NCBI GenBank assembly: GCA_026389335.1
Contig: JAPLIB010000088.1
Location: forward strand, 1-64,000
Length of the DNA: 64,000 bases
DNA from: Cyanobacteriota bacterium
Lineage (GTDB): Bacteria > Cyanobacteriota > Cyanobacteriia > PCC-6307 > Cyanobiaceae
Direction: 5' to 3'
Part shown: positions 641 through 6,389 of the stretch, one piece after another
Layout of the letters: each line of letters starts with the position of its first letter
Numbering within the stretch: the stretch's first letter is position 1
Made by a program: the position numbers and the translations under genes
Notes under the pieces: generated by a model
Databases searched by the model: none
Told to the model about the DNA's origin: nothing
What the model saw: only the letters and a program-made list of their open reading frames with translations

Positions 641-1639
641 ATGACCGTCAGCCAGGCCCATTACCGAGCTTTTGAGCTGAACTGGCGCTCCCAAGGCCTG
701 GCGATTCCTGAATTACCAGGCTGTTCGCTGGCTGCCTTAGCCGGAGCCGATCCACTGATCGCAATCGAGCCAGAAGAGCCGGACAGCTGGCCCCAGCTGG
801 AGCCTGGGCCCCACGACACGCCATTTCTGCGGATGGCCCGCGGCGATCTGCGTCTCACCGTGGATGACATCGGGCGCTTTCGGATCAAGGATGGCGAGCG
901 CATCGCCTGGCACCGGCAGCACAGCGGCGTGAGTGACCAGGACATCTGCACCTTTCTGCTGGGTTCGGCGGTGGGGGCCTTGCTGATTCAGCGCGGCATT
1001 CTGGTGTTGCATGGCAATGCGCTGGAAAAAGACGGCCAGGCGATCGTGTGCATGGGCCATTCCGGGGCCGGCAAATCCACCCTGGCCTACGCGCTGATGC
1101 AGCAGGGCTGGCGGCTCCTGGCCGATGACCTGGTGGCCATCAGCCCGGATGGATTGGTACTGCCTGGCATTCCCCGCATCAAGCTCTGGCACGACGCTGC
1201 CAAGGCGTTCGATCTGGATCCGGTCCAGCTGCCGCCGATCCGCCAGGGGATGCACAAATATCTGCTGATGGGAGAAGCGGTTCAGCGCGCCACCGAGGCG
1301 GTGCCCCTACAAGCGCTGTATCTGATCCACCAGCGTCGCCACGACAGCCCAGATCCGGAGGCCAGCCGCATCACCCGGATCACCAGCCAGAAGGCGGCGG
1401 CACTGCGGCTGCGCAATCAGGCGTTCCGCCCCCGGTTTGTGCGTGGACTGGGCCAGGAAGGCCTGAACTTTATGGCTCTGGCGCGGCTTCAGAGCCGGGT
1501 ACCTTTGGCCTCGCTGCCACTGCCAGCAGGGATCGCGGCCATGCAGGACTGGTTGGAGCAGCAGGATCTACTGCAGGCTGTGGCTACGGCAGAGGGGCCG
1601 GCTCCGGCTGAGCAGGACGCGGAGCTGGTGTCGGCATGA
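641..1639 (+). CDS. HPr-kinase-like peptide kinase (lasso K-type)
   Basis: The 332-residue protein has a P-loop GHSGAGKST at 139-147 and a second acidic motif LLADDLVAI at 159-167, the arrangement of HPr kinase/phosphorylase. It lacks the N-terminal domain of genuine HprK, and no HPr phosphotransfer genes are near. In paeninodin-type lasso clusters such proteins phosphorylate the side chain of the C-terminal Ser of the precursor. The precursors at 2925 and 3458 end in Gly-Pro-Ser, which fits that substrate. The stop overlaps the ATG of the sulfotransferase by four bases (ATGA), implying translational coupling. The gene is divergent from the nucleotidyltransferase. The kinase family call is firm; the peptide substrate is an inference. 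Confidence 0.82.
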   Translation: MTVSQAHYRAFELNWRSQGLAIPELPGCSLAALAGADPLIAIEPEEPDSWPQLEPGPHDTPFLRMARGDLRLTVDDIGRFRIKDGERIAWHRQHSGVSDQDICTFLLGSAVGALLIQRGILVLHGNALEKDGQAIVCMGHSGAGKSTLAYALMQQGWRLLADDLVAISPDGLVLPGIPRIKLWHDAAKAFDLDPVQLPPIRQGMHKYLLMGEAVQRATEAVPLQALYLIHQRRHDSPDPEASRITRITSQKAAALRLRNQAFRPRFVRGLGQEGLNFMALARLQSRVPLASLPLPAGIAAMQDWLEQQDLLQAVATAEGPAPAEQDAELVSA

Positions 1640-2553
1640 GCAGCCCGGAACCCTACTGGTATCTGGCCAGTTATCCCAAATCCGGCAACACCTGGTGCCG
1701 GGTTTTTATTACGGAACTTAGGCGCTTGGCGGGGCTCGACAGTGCTGATGCCACCGCATCTGCCCAACAAGAGGAACAAGCGCTCCGGCTCAACAGGGAC
1801 CTGGCAACCGGCTCGATCGTGAGCAGCCGCCATTGGCTCGATGATCAGCTGGGTATCGACAGCAGCGATCTGTGCTGGGCTGAACTGGATAAGGTGCGGG
1901 GCCGTGTGGGCCATCAGCGGGCCCTCTATGCGGAATGCCTGCGATACCACAAGGTGCACGATGCCTTCACCAGCCCTGATTCCGCTGGCCGGCCGGTGGT
2001 GCCCACCGAGGGGTGCCGGGGGGCGGTGGTGATGATCCGCCATCCGGCGGATGTGGCGGTGTCGCTGGGCCATTTCTTCTCGTGGGAGCTGGAGCGTTGC
2101 GTGGCCTTTCTGTTAAACGAGGAGGCAGCGCTGTGCCGCTCAAGCAAACGGGGCGGCCAACAGGTGCGCCAGTTCATGGGCAGCTGGGCCCACCATGGGC
2201 AGAGCTGGGTGGACCAGCAGCAGATCCCGGTGCTGCTTCTGCGCTACGAAGACCTGCTGGTGCAACCGGAGCACCACTTCCGGCGGCTGGCCACCTTTCT
2301 CGACCTGCCTGCTGAAGAGCCGCTAATCCGGGAGGCTGTGGCCAACACCCGCTTTGACAAGCTCCGCGCCAAGGAAGACGCGGAGGGTGGATTCCACGAG
2401 CGCCCGGAGGGCTGTGAGCGATTTTTCAGGTCTGGCCGCAGCGGCGAGGGCCGTGAGCAGCTCACGGCTGAGCAGATCCTGCAACTTGAGGAGGCTTTCT
2501 CAGAAACGCTGATTCGTTTTGGCTACGCGCTGAACCCATCAGTGGCAGCATGA
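1636..2553 (+). CDS. PAPS-dependent sulfotransferase
   Basis: The 305-residue protein begins with YWYLASYPKSGNTW; YPKSGNTW at 13-20 is the 5'-phosphosulfate-binding loop of Sulfotransfer_1 enzymes. RHPADVAVS at 135-143 is the 3'-phosphate-binding region. Its reaction would be transfer of sulfate from PAPS to a hydroxyl or similar acceptor. The four-base overlap with the kinase and the position directly before the precursor peptide cassettes suggest the acceptor is the lasso-like peptide or a sugar/phosphate added to it. That would be an additional tailoring step, but acceptance is not shown by the sequence. No signal peptide is seen, so it should act in the cytoplasm. Confidence 0.85.
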   Translation: MSSPEPYWYLASYPKSGNTWCRVFITELRRLAGLDSADATASAQQEEQALRLNRDLATGSIVSSRHWLDDQLGIDSSDLCWAELDKVRGRVGHQRALYAECLRYHKVHDAFTSPDSAGRPVVPTEGCRGAVVMIRHPADVAVSLGHFFSWELERCVAFLLNEEAALCRSSKRGGQQVRQFMGSWAHHGQSWVDQQQIPVLLLRYEDLLVQPEHHFRRLATFLDLPAEEPLIREAVANTRFDKLRAKEDAEGGFHERPEGCERFFRSGRSGEGREQLTAEQILQLEEAFSETLIRFGYALNPSVAA

Positions 2554-2924: not shown

Positions 2925-3083
2925 ATGACTTCTGCTGACCGCAACGACCTGATGCCCGCTCAAGAAAAGTTGGAGTGGGTCACACCGAAGATTTCGCTGA
3001 TGGAGGCGGGGGAGACGGATGGGCAACAAAAAGGTGGAGGGCGAGAGACGGGAGGTCCACAAAGCTTTTTTGGTCCTTCCTAA
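2925..3083 (+). CDS. Lasso-like precursor peptide, copy A
   Basis: This 52-residue ORF starts at an ATG six bases after an in-frame TGA, which fixes the start. The leader (residues 1-32) contains W18-V-T-P21-x-I23, matching the Y/W-x-x-P-x-L/I recognition element of lasso leaders, and has Thr31 at position -2. The predicted core is GQQKGGGRETGGPQSFFGPS. It begins with Gly1 and has Glu9, which would allow a nine-member Gly1-Glu9 isopeptide macrolactam. The C-terminal Ser is the type of residue phosphorylated by paeninodin-type kinases. The gene follows a kinase and sulfotransferase on the same strand and is followed by a hairpin at 3131. No Shine-Dalgarno is visible. Ring and cleavage site are predictions. 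Confidence 0.8.
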   Translation: MTSADRNDLMPAQEKLEWVTPKISLMEAGETDGQQKGGGRETGGPQSFFGPS

Positions 3084-3130
3084 CCATTTGGAAAATCCTG
3101 CCCACACCTACACAAATCAACAACACCAAC

Positions 3131-3151
3131 GGGTGTGCAAAGACCCCTTTT
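3131..3151 (+). terminator. Imperfect intrinsic terminator of precursor A
   Basis: GGGTGT-GCAA-AGACCC followed by CTTTTATT is the same element as the perfect terminators after copies B and C, but one stem pair is mismatched. It lies 47 bases after the stop. It may therefore leak transcription into copy B. Confidence 0.6.
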
Positions 3152-3420
3152 ATTCCCTACTATTTCCCACCCTTCTTCCCATAAATATCCCGTATAAGAC
3201 TCAGCACCAATGCCTCAAGGTTGCGAAACTGCCTGTGAGTTTTCTGTAACTCTTGGAGCATTGCTGCTTCTACTGGTGGGATTTCTCGGGAGTGGTTGCA
3301 GTGCTGCTGGGGTGGCGTTGAGGGCACAGGGCGGCGTTGGAGTGCCTGTGGGGTCTTGGTAGGGTCTTGTGGGCGGGTGCTGAAGAGTGCTGCAGATGGG
3401 AGGCGGTGCGGGTATTATTT

Positions 3421-3453
3421 GCCTGCTGCCTGCTGCCTGCTGCCTGCTGCCTG
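3421..3453 (+). repeat. Heptamer tandem repeat GCCTGCT directly upstream of precursor B
   Basis: Four complete GCCTGCT units and one partial unit end four bases before the precursor B start codon. Copies A and C have only one or two related units at this position. The tract occupies the position of the ribosome-binding region and could vary in length by slippage. Confidence 0.85.
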
Positions 3454-3457
3454 ACTT

Positions 3458-3610
3458 ATGACTTCCGCTGACCGCAACGACCTGATGCCTGCTCAAGAGA
3501 AGTTGGAGTGGGTCACTCCGAGTATTTCGCTGATGGAAGCGGAGGATACGGCGGGGTCAAAAATAGCCTCTGTAAAAGAACGCAATAAGACTCTTACTGG
3601 ACCGTCCTAA
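3458..3610 (+). CDS. Lasso-like precursor peptide, copy B
   Basis: This 50-residue ORF has an in-frame TGA six bases before its ATG. Its leader differs from copy A at only four of 32 residues (K22S, G29E, E30D, D32A) and keeps W18-V-T-P21-x-I23 and Thr31. The predicted core is GSKIASVKERNKTLTGPS, unlike copy A except for Gly1, Glu9 and the terminal Gly-Pro-Ser. Conservation of just the two ring-forming residues and the C-terminal Ser in an otherwise new core is the strongest internal evidence for lasso chemistry with C-terminal modification. A perfect terminator lies 50 bases after the stop. Confidence 0.78.
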   Translation: MTSADRNDLMPAQEKLEWVTPSISLMEAEDTAGSKIASVKERNKTLTGPS

Positions 3611-3660
3611 CTATCTTGGCATAATCCTTGCCCACACCAGCAAAACCCAATAACACCAAC

Positions 3661-3681
3661 GGGTCTGCAAAGACCCTTTTT
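3661..3681 (+). terminator. Intrinsic terminator of precursor B
   Basis: GGGTCT-GCAA-AGACCC is a perfect six-pair stem with a GCAA tetraloop, followed directly by TTTTT. Confidence 0.85.
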
Positions 3682-3683
3682 AA

Positions 3684-4253
3684 TACTTTGAGGCATTGAT
3701 CACCTGGCACGCCTGCTACTGATTTTGGATTGGGCGGCAGGGTTGAGGGTGCTAATGATGTTTTGTTTGCCAGTAGATAGATAAGTTTTCGCAGCAAAGC
3801 AATGGCGACAATAAGTGCCGCAAGATGATTGCTTGGTGGTCTATTTGTAGGTTTATTTTTCCTCCAATACAGCATTTAGTACCTTAACTGTTATTCAGGC
3901 ATTCGTCATCATTCCAACGTGGTGCATTGCAAAGGCGAAACTGCTGGGCGATGTGATGCCAGTGCTCGGGGAGTTGTTGCTGCATGGGCAGGTTGAGTAG
4001 CAGTGCTTGCTGAGCAATACATTGCCTATGGCGTTTGCTATTGCCTTGTGCTCTGGTGGCAGTGCCTTTGAGCAGGGCAATCAACTTGCTGCCCCATTAT
4101 TTAGTTTTGATTGGTTTTGATTTGCAGCGGTATTTTCTGCAGAAGTATTGATATCTCCTAGAGCATCCAGTGAGTGTGGGTGCAAGTTGCAGAAAGGCAG
4201 GATGCAAATCGCTCAATCCATCTGCTTCTAATCTGCTGTAGTGCCCGTAGTTG
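3684..4253. other. AT-richer DNA without a recognisable gene
   Basis: About 570 bases of lower GC content lie between precursor B and the IS remnant. Only short frames occur. One minus-strand frame around 3755-3827 translates to a stretch containing LAALIVAIALLRKLIYLLAN, which faintly resembles the C-terminal end of an IS110-type transposase; this is too weak to call. The stretch is part of the DNA inserted between cassettes B and C. Confidence 0.4.
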
Positions 4254-5019
4254 GGGCCTCCTGAATAATGGCAGAGCTGCTGCGCCGCAATGAATCTGAG
4301 CAGTTTTTAGCGGTAAAATGTACGCATATGGGCCCATTTGTGCCCAAAAGCCGCCCAGAGTTTTCCGCATGTATCGGCGCGAGCACCGTGATCAGCTCTC
4401 GTTCAAGGATTTATTCCTGCCATTTGGTGGACAACTCTCGGGTGACAATCGCTGGATCAAGCTCGCCGAGCTGATTCCTATAACGAAGGAGAAGACCTGA
4501 AAGCCCAGGCAAGGGCCTATCGCCGTCGTCATGGTCACTACCCCAAGGTGATCTGTGCAGATCAGATCTATAGAACTCGCGCCAATCGAGCCTTCTGCCT
4601 GCGCCATGGCATTCGCTTGAGTGGTCCAAGTCTCGGACGCCCCAAGAGTGATCCAGAGTTATTGGCTGAAGAGAAGCGCCAGTTCCTGGATGATCAGAGA
4701 CAACGCAACGCCGTCGAGGGCAAGATCGGTCAAGGCAAACGACGGTTTGGATTGGGTCTGATCCGCGAGAAGCTTGCTGTCACCCAAGGTGCAACCATTG
4801 CACTGAATGTGCTGGTGATGAACCTCGAGAAGCTGCTGGAGCTTCTTTTTGTCCTTTTTGCGGCCTTGCTACACCTTCTACTGGCCAATGAAGGCGGTCG
4901 GTGTATTTGCACTGTGCCACTGAAGCCTCAGATAGCCGCGGCGTGATGATCGGGCTGCGTGCTCAACCAAAATCCATTGTTGTTGAGGCTGACCCCGAAT
5001 TCACGTTCTCAGGAGGCCC
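4254..5019 (+). mobile_element. Internally deleted IS5-like insertion sequence
   Basis: The ends carry perfect 11-base inverted repeats, GGGCCTCCTGA at 4254-4264 and TCAGGAGGCCC at 5009-5019, which bracket both ends of a broken transposase. The element is about 766 bases, roughly half of a normal IS5-group element, because the middle of the transposase gene is missing. No clear target duplication is seen. It cannot move unaided but could be mobilised by a complete relative. Confidence 0.7.
4369..4946 (+). pseudogene. IS5-family transposase, internal deletion and frameshift
   Basis: The N-terminal piece from ATG 4369 reads MYRREHRDQLSF and then LFLPFGGQL, typical of IS5-group transposases, up to AELIP near 4472. 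There the frame changes and the sequence jumps to the C-terminal piece (YRRRHGHYPKVICADQIYRT, later RQRNAVEGKIGQGKRRFG). That piece contains the conserved Y-x-x-R-x-N-R and final E-G-x-I-G-x-G-K-R elements. The catalytic central part with the first DDE aspartates is gone. The C-terminal frame ends at 4946. Confidence 0.75.
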
Positions 5020-5060
5020 TAATTGGTGCGCGGCGCGTAAAGCCTTGCCTTGGGTGATGC

Positions 5061-5573
5061 TTACGCCTTGACTGTGACGTAATCATCTAGCAGTTCAGGC
5101 TTATCTCCTTTGCCGCGATCCCAGTGGCGCGGCACGCCTACTTTTTCAAAGCCGCAAGCGCATAGAAGTCGAGACATAGATGTATTCTCCCTGGACACCG
5201 AAGCACCGAATCGATTTACAGAAAAAAATTGATACATTAAGTCTTTGAGGGCAAAAATAAAGGATTTTCCAATACCTTTTGATCTAAAGGGCGGCCAAAG
5301 GGCTGCGGCTTCGACTCCTATACGAAAATGATATAGCTTCTCGAAATTGGCTGACTCCTCGGCAGTAAAAAAGCCTACAGATCTATCTCCAATTCGGGCA
5401 CATGCTACCAATCTAGACCGGCTGGCGTGTCCGTCTTGGTAGTGGAGCAGGTAGCGGAACATTGCCTGATCACTGTCTGGTAAGGAAATTCGTCCTAAGC
5501 TTTTTCTGTGAGTGGATATATCCTTGGCTAGAGTCAGGACTTCTGATCGGTCAATGGGGTTAAAAGTAAGCAT
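5061..5573 (-). CDS. GNAT-family N-acetyltransferase
   Basis: The 170-residue protein shows the acetyl-CoA pyrophosphate loop as RSKGIG at 97-102 and the later GNAT element ENTSMSRLLCACGFEKVG near the C-terminus, where a bypassed side chain and the final strand are expected. The substrate cannot be read from the sequence. It is AT-richer than the core genes of the window and sits inside the block inserted between precursor cassettes B and C, next to the IS remnant. Transfer with the island is likely. Acetylation of the lasso-like peptide is possible, but its opposite orientation and different history argue that it is a passenger. Confidence 0.7.
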   Translation of the reverse strand: MLTFNPIDRSEVLTLAKDISTHRKSLGRISLPDSDQAMFRYLLHYQDGHASRSRLVACARIGDRSVGFFTAEESANFEKLYHFRIGVEAAALWPPFRSKGIGKSFIFALKDLMYQFFSVNRFGASVSRENTSMSRLLCACGFEKVGVPRHWDRGKGDKPELLDDYVTVKA

Positions 5574-5849
5574 TTAGCATGATGAATGAAAAGATTGCGC
5601 GTGCTTGATGAGGCGCTCTGATCGCCCCGACTTTTCTGGCTTGATCACAGTCTTTCCTGTCTGCTGTCGACAGCACCATTCGATTTTTTAAAAATTTAAT
5701 TGTGCGACTTTGCGAGATCCTCGAATGTTAAGCAATCGCAACTTTTGCTGCTGTGTTCTGTGAGGGTCTTGCAGCAGTTTTATGGGCGGGTGCTGAAGAG
5801 TGAGGCAGGTGGGAGGCGGAATAGGTATTATTCGCCTGCTGCCTGCCCG

Positions 5850-6041
5850 ATGACTTCTGCTGGCGACAACGACCTGATGCCCACTCAAGAGAAGTTGGAG
5901 TGGGTCACTCCGAAGATTTCGCTGATGGAGGCGGGGGAAACGGCGGGCAATAAGAAGAATAATTTCAAAGAAATAAATCAGGGTCGGGACCCTCCTAACC
6001 ATCTTGGCATAATCCCCGCCCACACCAACAAAAACCAATAA
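5850..6041 (+). CDS. Lasso-like precursor peptide, copy C, with probable 3' frameshift
   Basis: The leader keeps W18-V-T-P21-K-I23 and Thr31, and differs from copy A at D5G, R6D, A12T and D32A. The core starts GNKKNNFKE, so Gly1 and Glu9 are again present. The frame then runs past the position where the sister copies stop, giving a 63-residue peptide ending at 6041. In another frame the same DNA reads GGA CCC TCC TAA (Gly-Pro-Ser-stop at 5987-5998), 50 bases before the terminator exactly as in copy B. A single frameshift after the ring region therefore probably replaced the Gly-Pro-Ser tail by an extended one. It may be a decaying copy or encode an altered tail. Confidence 0.62.
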   Translation: MTSAGDNDLMPTQEKLEWVTPKISLMEAGETAGNKKNNFKEINQGRDPPNHLGIIPAHTNKNQ

Positions 6042-6048
6042 CACCCAT

Positions 6049-6070
6049 GGGTCTGCAAAGACCCTTTTTT
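6049..6070 (+). terminator. Intrinsic terminator of precursor C
   Basis: GGGTCT-GCAA-AGACCC followed by TTTTTT is identical in stem and loop to the terminator of copy B. Confidence 0.85.
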
Positions 6071-6389
6071 ATTGCTTTCTATCTCCCACCCTTATTCCCG
6101 TATTCTTCCCGTATAAGACCCAGCACCAGTGCCTCAAGATTGCGAAACTACTTGTGAGTTTTCTGTAGGTCTTCGAGCATTGCTGCTGCTGCGGGTGGGA
6201 TATACGCAAGGCAATGGTCTTCGTTTAAGCGCCTGTTGGTATAGCCCAGTCAAAAACGCATCGGTAGTGGAAAGGTCAGACCATCAGCACTAATGGCCGG
6301 ATGGCTACAGCCGACGAAGTTTTTCAGCCTGAGTAGCCTTCCAGTGATCTGAGGACTCAGCAGAGTTACCGCTGGAGTCACCACCGCCG

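Follow-up and report, generated by a model that had tools for sequence, protein, structure and literature searches.

What do three short, related open reading frames (ORFs) close to the start of a cyanobacterial contig encode, and which enzymes would act on their products? The DNA considered here (the window) is a stretch of 64,000 nucleotides, positions 1 to 64,000 of contig JAPLIB010000088.1 (assembly GCA_026389335.1, family Cyanobiaceae; below, the window contig is C142 and the source genome G000). The three ORFs, designated copies A, B, and C, lie between positions 2925 and 6041, and were originally predicted, from the sequence of the window, to encode precursors of lasso peptides. Their neighbouring genes and the corresponding loci of related genomes make it probable that A and B, like C in its original form, encode precursors of lasso peptides tailored by a kinase. 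In the scheme that we infer, the WVTPxI leader would be bound by the RRE of B1, the B2 protease would cut the leader after Thr-x, and the cyclase would form a bond between Gly1 and an acidic side chain, which in A, B, and C is that of Glu9, so that a tail threaded through a nine-residue ring would result. Before folding, the C-terminal Ser of A and B would be phosphorylated by the neighbouring kinase, and a nucleotidyltransferase, a sulfotransferase, and perhaps a glycosyltransferase would decorate the Ser end, with several precursors served by a single enzyme set.

Three Paralogous Putative Precursor Genes

The three ORFs translate as originally described (Table 1). All have a 32-residue leader with the W-V-T-P-x-I motif (WVTPKI in A, WVTPSI in B) and Thr at position -2, together with Gly1 and Glu9 in the core, and both A and B end in Gly-Pro-Ser (GPS). 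The leader motif of lasso precursors, Y/W-x-x-P-x-L/I with Thr at -2, is thus present in A, B, and C, as it is in the precursors of two related genomes, G192 and G251. The copies are true paralogues and not chance resemblances, since their DNA is 71-79% identical between pairs over 342-421 aligned bp (E 1e-49 to 1e-84). A comparison of copy A with the whole source genome (4.05 Mb in 171 contigs, 99.4% complete), at E-values up to 10, returned exactly three matches, namely A, B, and C.

Leader and core appear to have evolved differently. For the leaders of A, B, C, and two relatives (96 bp per sequence, in pairs that are not mutually independent), the ratio of nonsynonymous to synonymous differences (pN/pS) is 0.41 when summed, and below 1 in 10/10 pairs (range 0.27-0.75); the leader, therefore, looks constrained at the protein level. 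The cores seem to be fast-changing. The view that they are unrelated save for Gly1 and Glu9 is right as to these two residues in A, B, and C, and too strong for the remainder, as a full-length alignment of six precursors gives the consensus G-S-x-K...K-E...GPS, which points to cores that are diverged yet not wholly unrelated. In copy C, the DNA for the GPS-stop end of A and B is still there in a shifted frame (frame 3 reads GPS and then a stop); its long tail is, therefore, a read-through into sequence that belongs to the 3' untranslated part of A and B, and the copy is probably damaged. The hairpin following copy B (-12.7 kcal/mol, z -2.0) is stronger than that of copy A (z -1.5).

Predicted Biosynthetic Enzymes in the Source Genome and Its Relatives

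Absence of lasso B and C genes from the genome had been named at the outset as evidence that would speak against lasso peptides. These genes were looked for in G000 and are present on a contig of 5,383 bp (C100), where an ATP-grasp-like gene (PF14397, sub-cutoff), B1 (PqqD), B2 (Transglut_core3), and an Asn-synthase-like cyclase gene are consecutive. B1 (C100:1585-1785; PF05402, 64.6 bits) is one of three PqqD genes in G000, and its best solved relatives are a lasso PqqD chaperone (9x90) and TbiB1. According to PMC5067487, PadeB1 has a Kd of about 5 nM for its leader. B2 (C100:1917-2162) is the sole B2 match in G000 and exceeds the cutoff of the lasso_biosyn_B2 model NF033537 (37.6 bits, cutoff 33); in the Protein Data Bank (PDB), it gave one irrelevant weak match only (E 0.14). 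The cyclase scores above the PF00733 cutoff, has no match in the PDB, and carries an SSGLDS loop, also found in the cyclases of loci L049 and L050 described below.

As B1 candidates, the two other PqqD genes (on contigs C6 and C130) were set aside because their neighbours differ and the sole B2 match is on C100. A glycosyltransferase-like ORF comes after the first (C6:344-520, L009) and another HprK-like gene after the second (C130:37784-37984, L010); the two PqqD genes possibly mark other loci for ribosomally synthesized and post-translationally modified peptides.

In relatives, the genes of C100 and of the window are found together. Cyanobium sp. E1_MAG_00006 (G251, locus L050) has the ATP-grasp-like gene, B1, B2, the cyclase, the nucleotidyltransferase, the kinase, the sulfotransferase, and one precursor on a single contig, and the genes of this cluster are 83-96% identical to their counterparts on C100 and C142. 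The contig of Synechococcus sp. UW140 MAG (G192, locus L049) begins inside the cyclase, continues with an ABC transporter, a GT2 glycosyltransferase, the nucleotidyltransferase, kinase, and sulfotransferase, and runs on to one precursor. In both clusters, the export ABC transporter (D) and GT2 lie in between (the transporter of L049 being assigned with Pfam). Since G251 and G192 join these genes, C100 and the window contig very likely flank a gap in one cluster, a link that, in G000, rests on synteny; the missing left side corresponds to a contig break, as the window begins at contig base 1. The original prediction of lasso precursors is, thus, supported by B1, B2, and cyclase genes in G000 and by a precursor joined to such a locus in G251.

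A cyclase gene is also retained beside B1 and B2 in G251, G028, G036, and a second cluster of G192. The latter (L097, on contig C70 of G192) reads nucleotidyltransferase-HprK-sulfotransferase-B1-B2-cyclase, with genes 47-71% alike, and is followed by an ORF of 58 amino acids (aa) with WEPPVI and a Ser end (GVYPTNNESINSLTGHS); its Thr does not occupy position -2 relative to the Gly of this sequence.

Proposed Tailoring Genes and the C-Terminal Serine

The kinase and sulfotransferase genes (641-2553) and the C-terminal Ser of A and B had no part in the original prediction. The kinase matches TIGR04352 (HprK_rel_A) with an E-value of 4e-15, yet with 55.6 bits against a cutoff of 200, and PF07475 with 32.7 bits against a cutoff of 33.3; HPr kinase structures align over 46 residues (E 0.0014). 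Its LHGN, GAGKST, and LADD motifs, seen by eye, contain the residues of the His-Lys-Asp-Asp motif that a section of PMC9266682 describes for lasso kinases. The start codon of the nucleotidyltransferase gene was placed from comparison with a relative's ORF, and its relative in G251 (L050:11932-13236) matches PF14907 (110.7 bits); the enzyme would have a PsmN-like role.

According to passages of PMC9266682 and PMC8498205, the kinases PadeK, ThcoK, and SyanK phosphorylate the C-terminal Ser of the precursor, and this Ser is extremely conserved in precursors of kinase-bearing lasso clusters. The same passages have PsmN-like nucleotidyltransferases adding hexoses to phospho-Ser in pseudomycoidin, and report a sulfotransferase gene, with no function stated there, at the start of some Firmicutes lasso clusters. 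In the genomes compared here, a Ser end occurs in 8/9 precursor candidates whose contig also carries a close kinase (at least 44%), namely A, B, two in G192, and one each in G251, G001, G019, and G005, copy C being the exception. In clusters whose HprK-like genes are all distant, none of the five candidates (G029, G342, G203, G169, and G004) ends in Ser, and neither do three of the four precursors that have the shared leader and were found separate from the machinery (G036 has two of these, G024 and G211 one each). The monoisotopic masses calculated for the cores minus one water are 1959.919 (A) and 1854.032 (B), or 2039.885 and 1933.999 when a phosphate is added; a phosphate and a sulfate would differ by 0.0095 Da.

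Table 1. Features at the start of the window, in order of position
Feature	Position	Strand	Remarks
NTP_transf_5-type nucleotidyltransferase, cut by contig start	3-584	-	73-85% identical to relatives in L049 and L050
HprK-like kinase	641-1639	+	TIGR04352, PF07475, and HPr kinase structures; weak or local matches
Sulfotransferase	1636-2553	+	PF00685, 71.1 bits, cutoff 22; 4-base overlap with the kinase gene
Precursor A	2925-3083	+	leader 1-32, core GQQKGGGRETGGPQSFFGPS
Precursor B	3458-3610	+	leader 1-32, core GSKIASVKERNKTLTGPS
Conserved 3' end of copy B, terminator-like hairpin	3599-3684	+	GGGTCTGCAAAGACCC and T run; 90% to that of copy C
Broken RAYT-like (Y1_Tnp) transposase remnant	3887-4270	-	tail to tail with copy B
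DDE transposase piece	4548-4946	+	PF13586, 90.7 bits; between copies B and C
GNAT-like gene	5061-5573	-	Pfam, sub-cutoff; after the DDE piece
Precursor C	5850-6041	+	leader as in A and B; GPS-stop end out of frame
Conserved 3' region of copy C, terminator-like hairpin	5985-6075	+	fold z -2.9

Precursor Family and Ring Residues

Precursors were surveyed in 400 genomes drawn from the family, 12 of which gave matches at an E-value of 0.1 (six strong and six weak). Weak leader matches in G016 and G033 were dropped once their reading frames were seen, and those in G027, G256, G260, G380, and G382 on their E-values (0.05-0.09) alone; the weak match in G029 was retained as a different lasso precursor. 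Nine precursors with a WVTPxI-type leader were obtained from six genomes (three in G000, two in G036, and one each in G192, G251, G024, and G211). Two further genera, with 25 and 6 genomes, yielded no new precursors (1/25 and 1/6, both known already), and a scan of genome contigs gave five loci, all in the five known relatives.

A nine-residue ring between Gly1 and Glu9, initially proposed for the three copies, is not supported as a universal feature of the family. The two residues occur jointly in only four of the nine precursors (A, B, C, and G251), Gly1 in seven, and an acid at positions 7-9 in five. Homologues without Gly1 or Glu9, which the original prediction had itself listed as counting against it, therefore exist. 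Beside cluster genes, the pair is present in 4/5 precursors, the exception being that of G192; the four other failures (two in G036, G024, and G211) lie away from any machinery seen. The G024 precursor has Lys1 and Glu7, and two more, the first G036 precursor (G036_1) and that of G211, fall outside the ring rule. The core start of G036_1 is altered, and the G211 copy is shortened to 41 aa.

Evidence against and Alternative Explanations

Several findings weigh against the assignment of these genes to kinase-tailored lasso peptides. The precursors have no match to a lasso model in NCBIfam or Pfam, where a single chance match (TPR_21, E 0.17) was obtained. The best NCBIfam models of B1 and of the cyclase are those of the lasso PqqD protein (NF033536) and lasso cyclase (NF033535), at scores that are sub-cutoff (56.3 of 80) and far sub-cutoff (37.7 of 525), respectively, and no overlap was found between C100 and the start of the window contig. 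The G192 precursor beside the nucleotidyltransferase, kinase, and sulfotransferase genes, the sole one there with the shared leader, has its first ring acid at position 12, and the second G036 precursor (G036_2) at position 10. As for the Ser ends, those of A, B, and G024 are not independent because their GPS ends share homologous DNA, and the candidates outside the shared-leader family were chosen by eye from motif lists. No in-frame ATG was seen for the candidates of G001 and G005, and L053, L058, and L095, which have a close kinase, yielded no recognisable precursor, nor did L055 and L111.

The displaced acids can be explained, post hoc, by short in-frame duplications that would have shifted an ancestral Glu9, as the ring region of G192 has a near-repeat (TTCCCTATC/TTCCCTAAT) immediately before Glu, and that of G036_2 an AAG AAG pair. 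Such copies would be either dead or used by a cyclase that accepts larger rings. An acid at 7-9 in just five of the nine precursors, and the weak cyclase score, would also fit a modified, unknotted peptide, of which B2 cuts the leader and the tail is phosphorylated or sulfated, the position of the acid being irrelevant. This is quite improbable, considering the cyclase kept beside B1 and B2 in four relatives' clusters, its SSGLDS loop in C100, L049, and L050, and the retention of Gly1 and Glu9 in A, B, C, and G251. Decay is a further explanation, and a less likely one than working precursors: the array would consist mostly of decaying duplicates of one ancestral precursor, multiplied with its flanks, with drifting cores and only some working copies. 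The leader pN/pS values argue otherwise, as do the single copies of G192 and G251, which adjoin kept cluster genes, and copies A and B, which are open from the start to the Ser-stop, B having its own terminator-like hairpin. Nevertheless, the lost GPS frame of copy C, the defects of the G211 and G036_1 precursors, the G024 precursor in a genome where B2 was not found, the transposase remnants between B and C, and the in-frame repeats of G192 and G036_2 are what decay would leave.

The remaining alternative concerns the transposase gene tail to tail with copy B. This remnant matches an open G036 gene in tblastn (74% over 127 aa; 73%, one stop), which in turn matches PF01797, and the Y1_Tnp gene near copy B is regarded here as RAYT-like. 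A block extending from the precursor 3' end into the convergent Y1_Tnp gene is common to copy B, G024, and G036_1 (for copy B, 79% over 517 bp with G024 and 78% over 643 bp with G036_1). RAYT-like matches amount to one in G036, between its two precursors, and three in G024, where two are pieces next to the precursor. G000 has seven pieces, spread over three contigs, and G132 has ten matches; none was found at 1e-8 in G192 and G251. Since no B2 was found in G024 (rated 100% complete), its precursor looks orphan. Precursor and RAYT-like transposase might, thus, form a small cassette, moved or copied as a unit and seeding orphan precursors, for which the common block, the location of the sole G036 match, and the G024 orphan speak. 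This is, however, unlikely: only 3/9 precursors show the block, G251 lacks a RAYT match, that of G211 is on another contig, and the copy in the window is broken. Moreover, all three linkages may go back to a single inherited event and not to movement on several occasions; cassette ends, target sites, and palindromes were not shown, and the precursor 3' region has no solo copies in G000, where it is found only at precursors (3/3).

Comparison with Known Systems

The kinase-tailored lasso reading places these genes close to published clusters. With those of paeninodin, ThcoK, and SyanK, they share split B1 and B2, a cyclase, an ABC transporter (in relatives), an HprK-like kinase, and a Ser-ending precursor; they differ in being cyanobacterial, in having a sulfotransferase, an ATP-grasp-like gene, GT2, and several precursors, and in a leader unmatched by existing models. 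With pseudomycoidin (PsmK and PsmN), they share a kinase and a nucleotidyltransferase beside the lasso set, but the nucleotidyltransferase gene is divergently read here and the sulfotransferase gene overlaps the kinase gene. A second lasso subfamily of the same genus (G001, G019, and G005) has the HprK-B1-B2 row and Ser-ending candidates in common with the present one, the row being preceded by the nucleotidyltransferase in G001 and G019. It differs by its leader (W-I-K/R-P-x-L/I) and by its cyclase, which is about 24% alike in those cases where a match exists, and no sulfotransferase match was found within the stretches examined. Prochlorosins also combine a near-constant leader with varied cores and one enzyme set, but are lanthipeptides, whose leader is a different one and whose many precursors are scattered. 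The SynChlorMet cassette, which also includes radical SAM enzymes, does not fit these genes, as the scores are far sub-cutoff for the ScmC kinase (27.6 of 125) and the ScmD PqqD protein (32.2 of 100).

No prior description of this precursor family was found among the matches listed from the open-licence literature, in agreement with the supposition that it was undescribed; the novelty does not extend to the biosynthetic type and cyanobacterial lasso genes, which are already published. For rumen Firmicutes, part of PMC7533575 reports lasso genomes with multiple precursors, as well as clusters that combine a kinase, a nucleotidyltransferase, and GT2, and a passage of PMC8600333 credits cyanobacterial lasso peptides to Tietz et al. 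2017. As a prediction from genes, a cyanobacterial addition to the kinase-tailored (paeninodin/pseudomycoidin-type) lasso peptides is well supported. Genes for a kinase, a nucleotidyltransferase, and a sulfotransferase occur together in this lineage, which makes the role of the sulfotransferase in lasso clusters testable, and the rule of 7-9 for the ring could be tested with natural precursors that have their acid at 10 or 12. It is doubtful that the split lasso system of freshwater picocyanobacteria is one in which the precursors served by a single cyclisation and tailoring set would be copied and spread as RAYT-linked cassettes, the cores being renewed while leader and Ser end stay fixed, with some rings larger than nine (acid at 10 or 12).

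Related Loci

HprK, sulfotransferase, and PqqD genes recur together in seven further loci (L098-L104, in G211, G353, G179, G334, G132, G319, and G239, respectively), in stretches with no B2 or cyclase match. A RAYT-like gene adjoins PqqD in six of the seven (not in L099), and a GNAT-like ORF (Pfam, sub-cutoff) lies between in the four loci read for it. L099-L104 also have beta-barrel-like ORFs of about 310 aa, often in tandem, with weak, sub-cutoff matches to IAT_beta. All 11 copies read have a W-x-x-P-x-I stretch and a near-end NR(D/N/A) stretch; the C-terminal tails that follow (roughly 9-90 aa) differ strongly, some residues being common to three of them. Possibly, the fixed part of these ORFs is a leader of very large size and the hypervariable part a core displayed at the surface.

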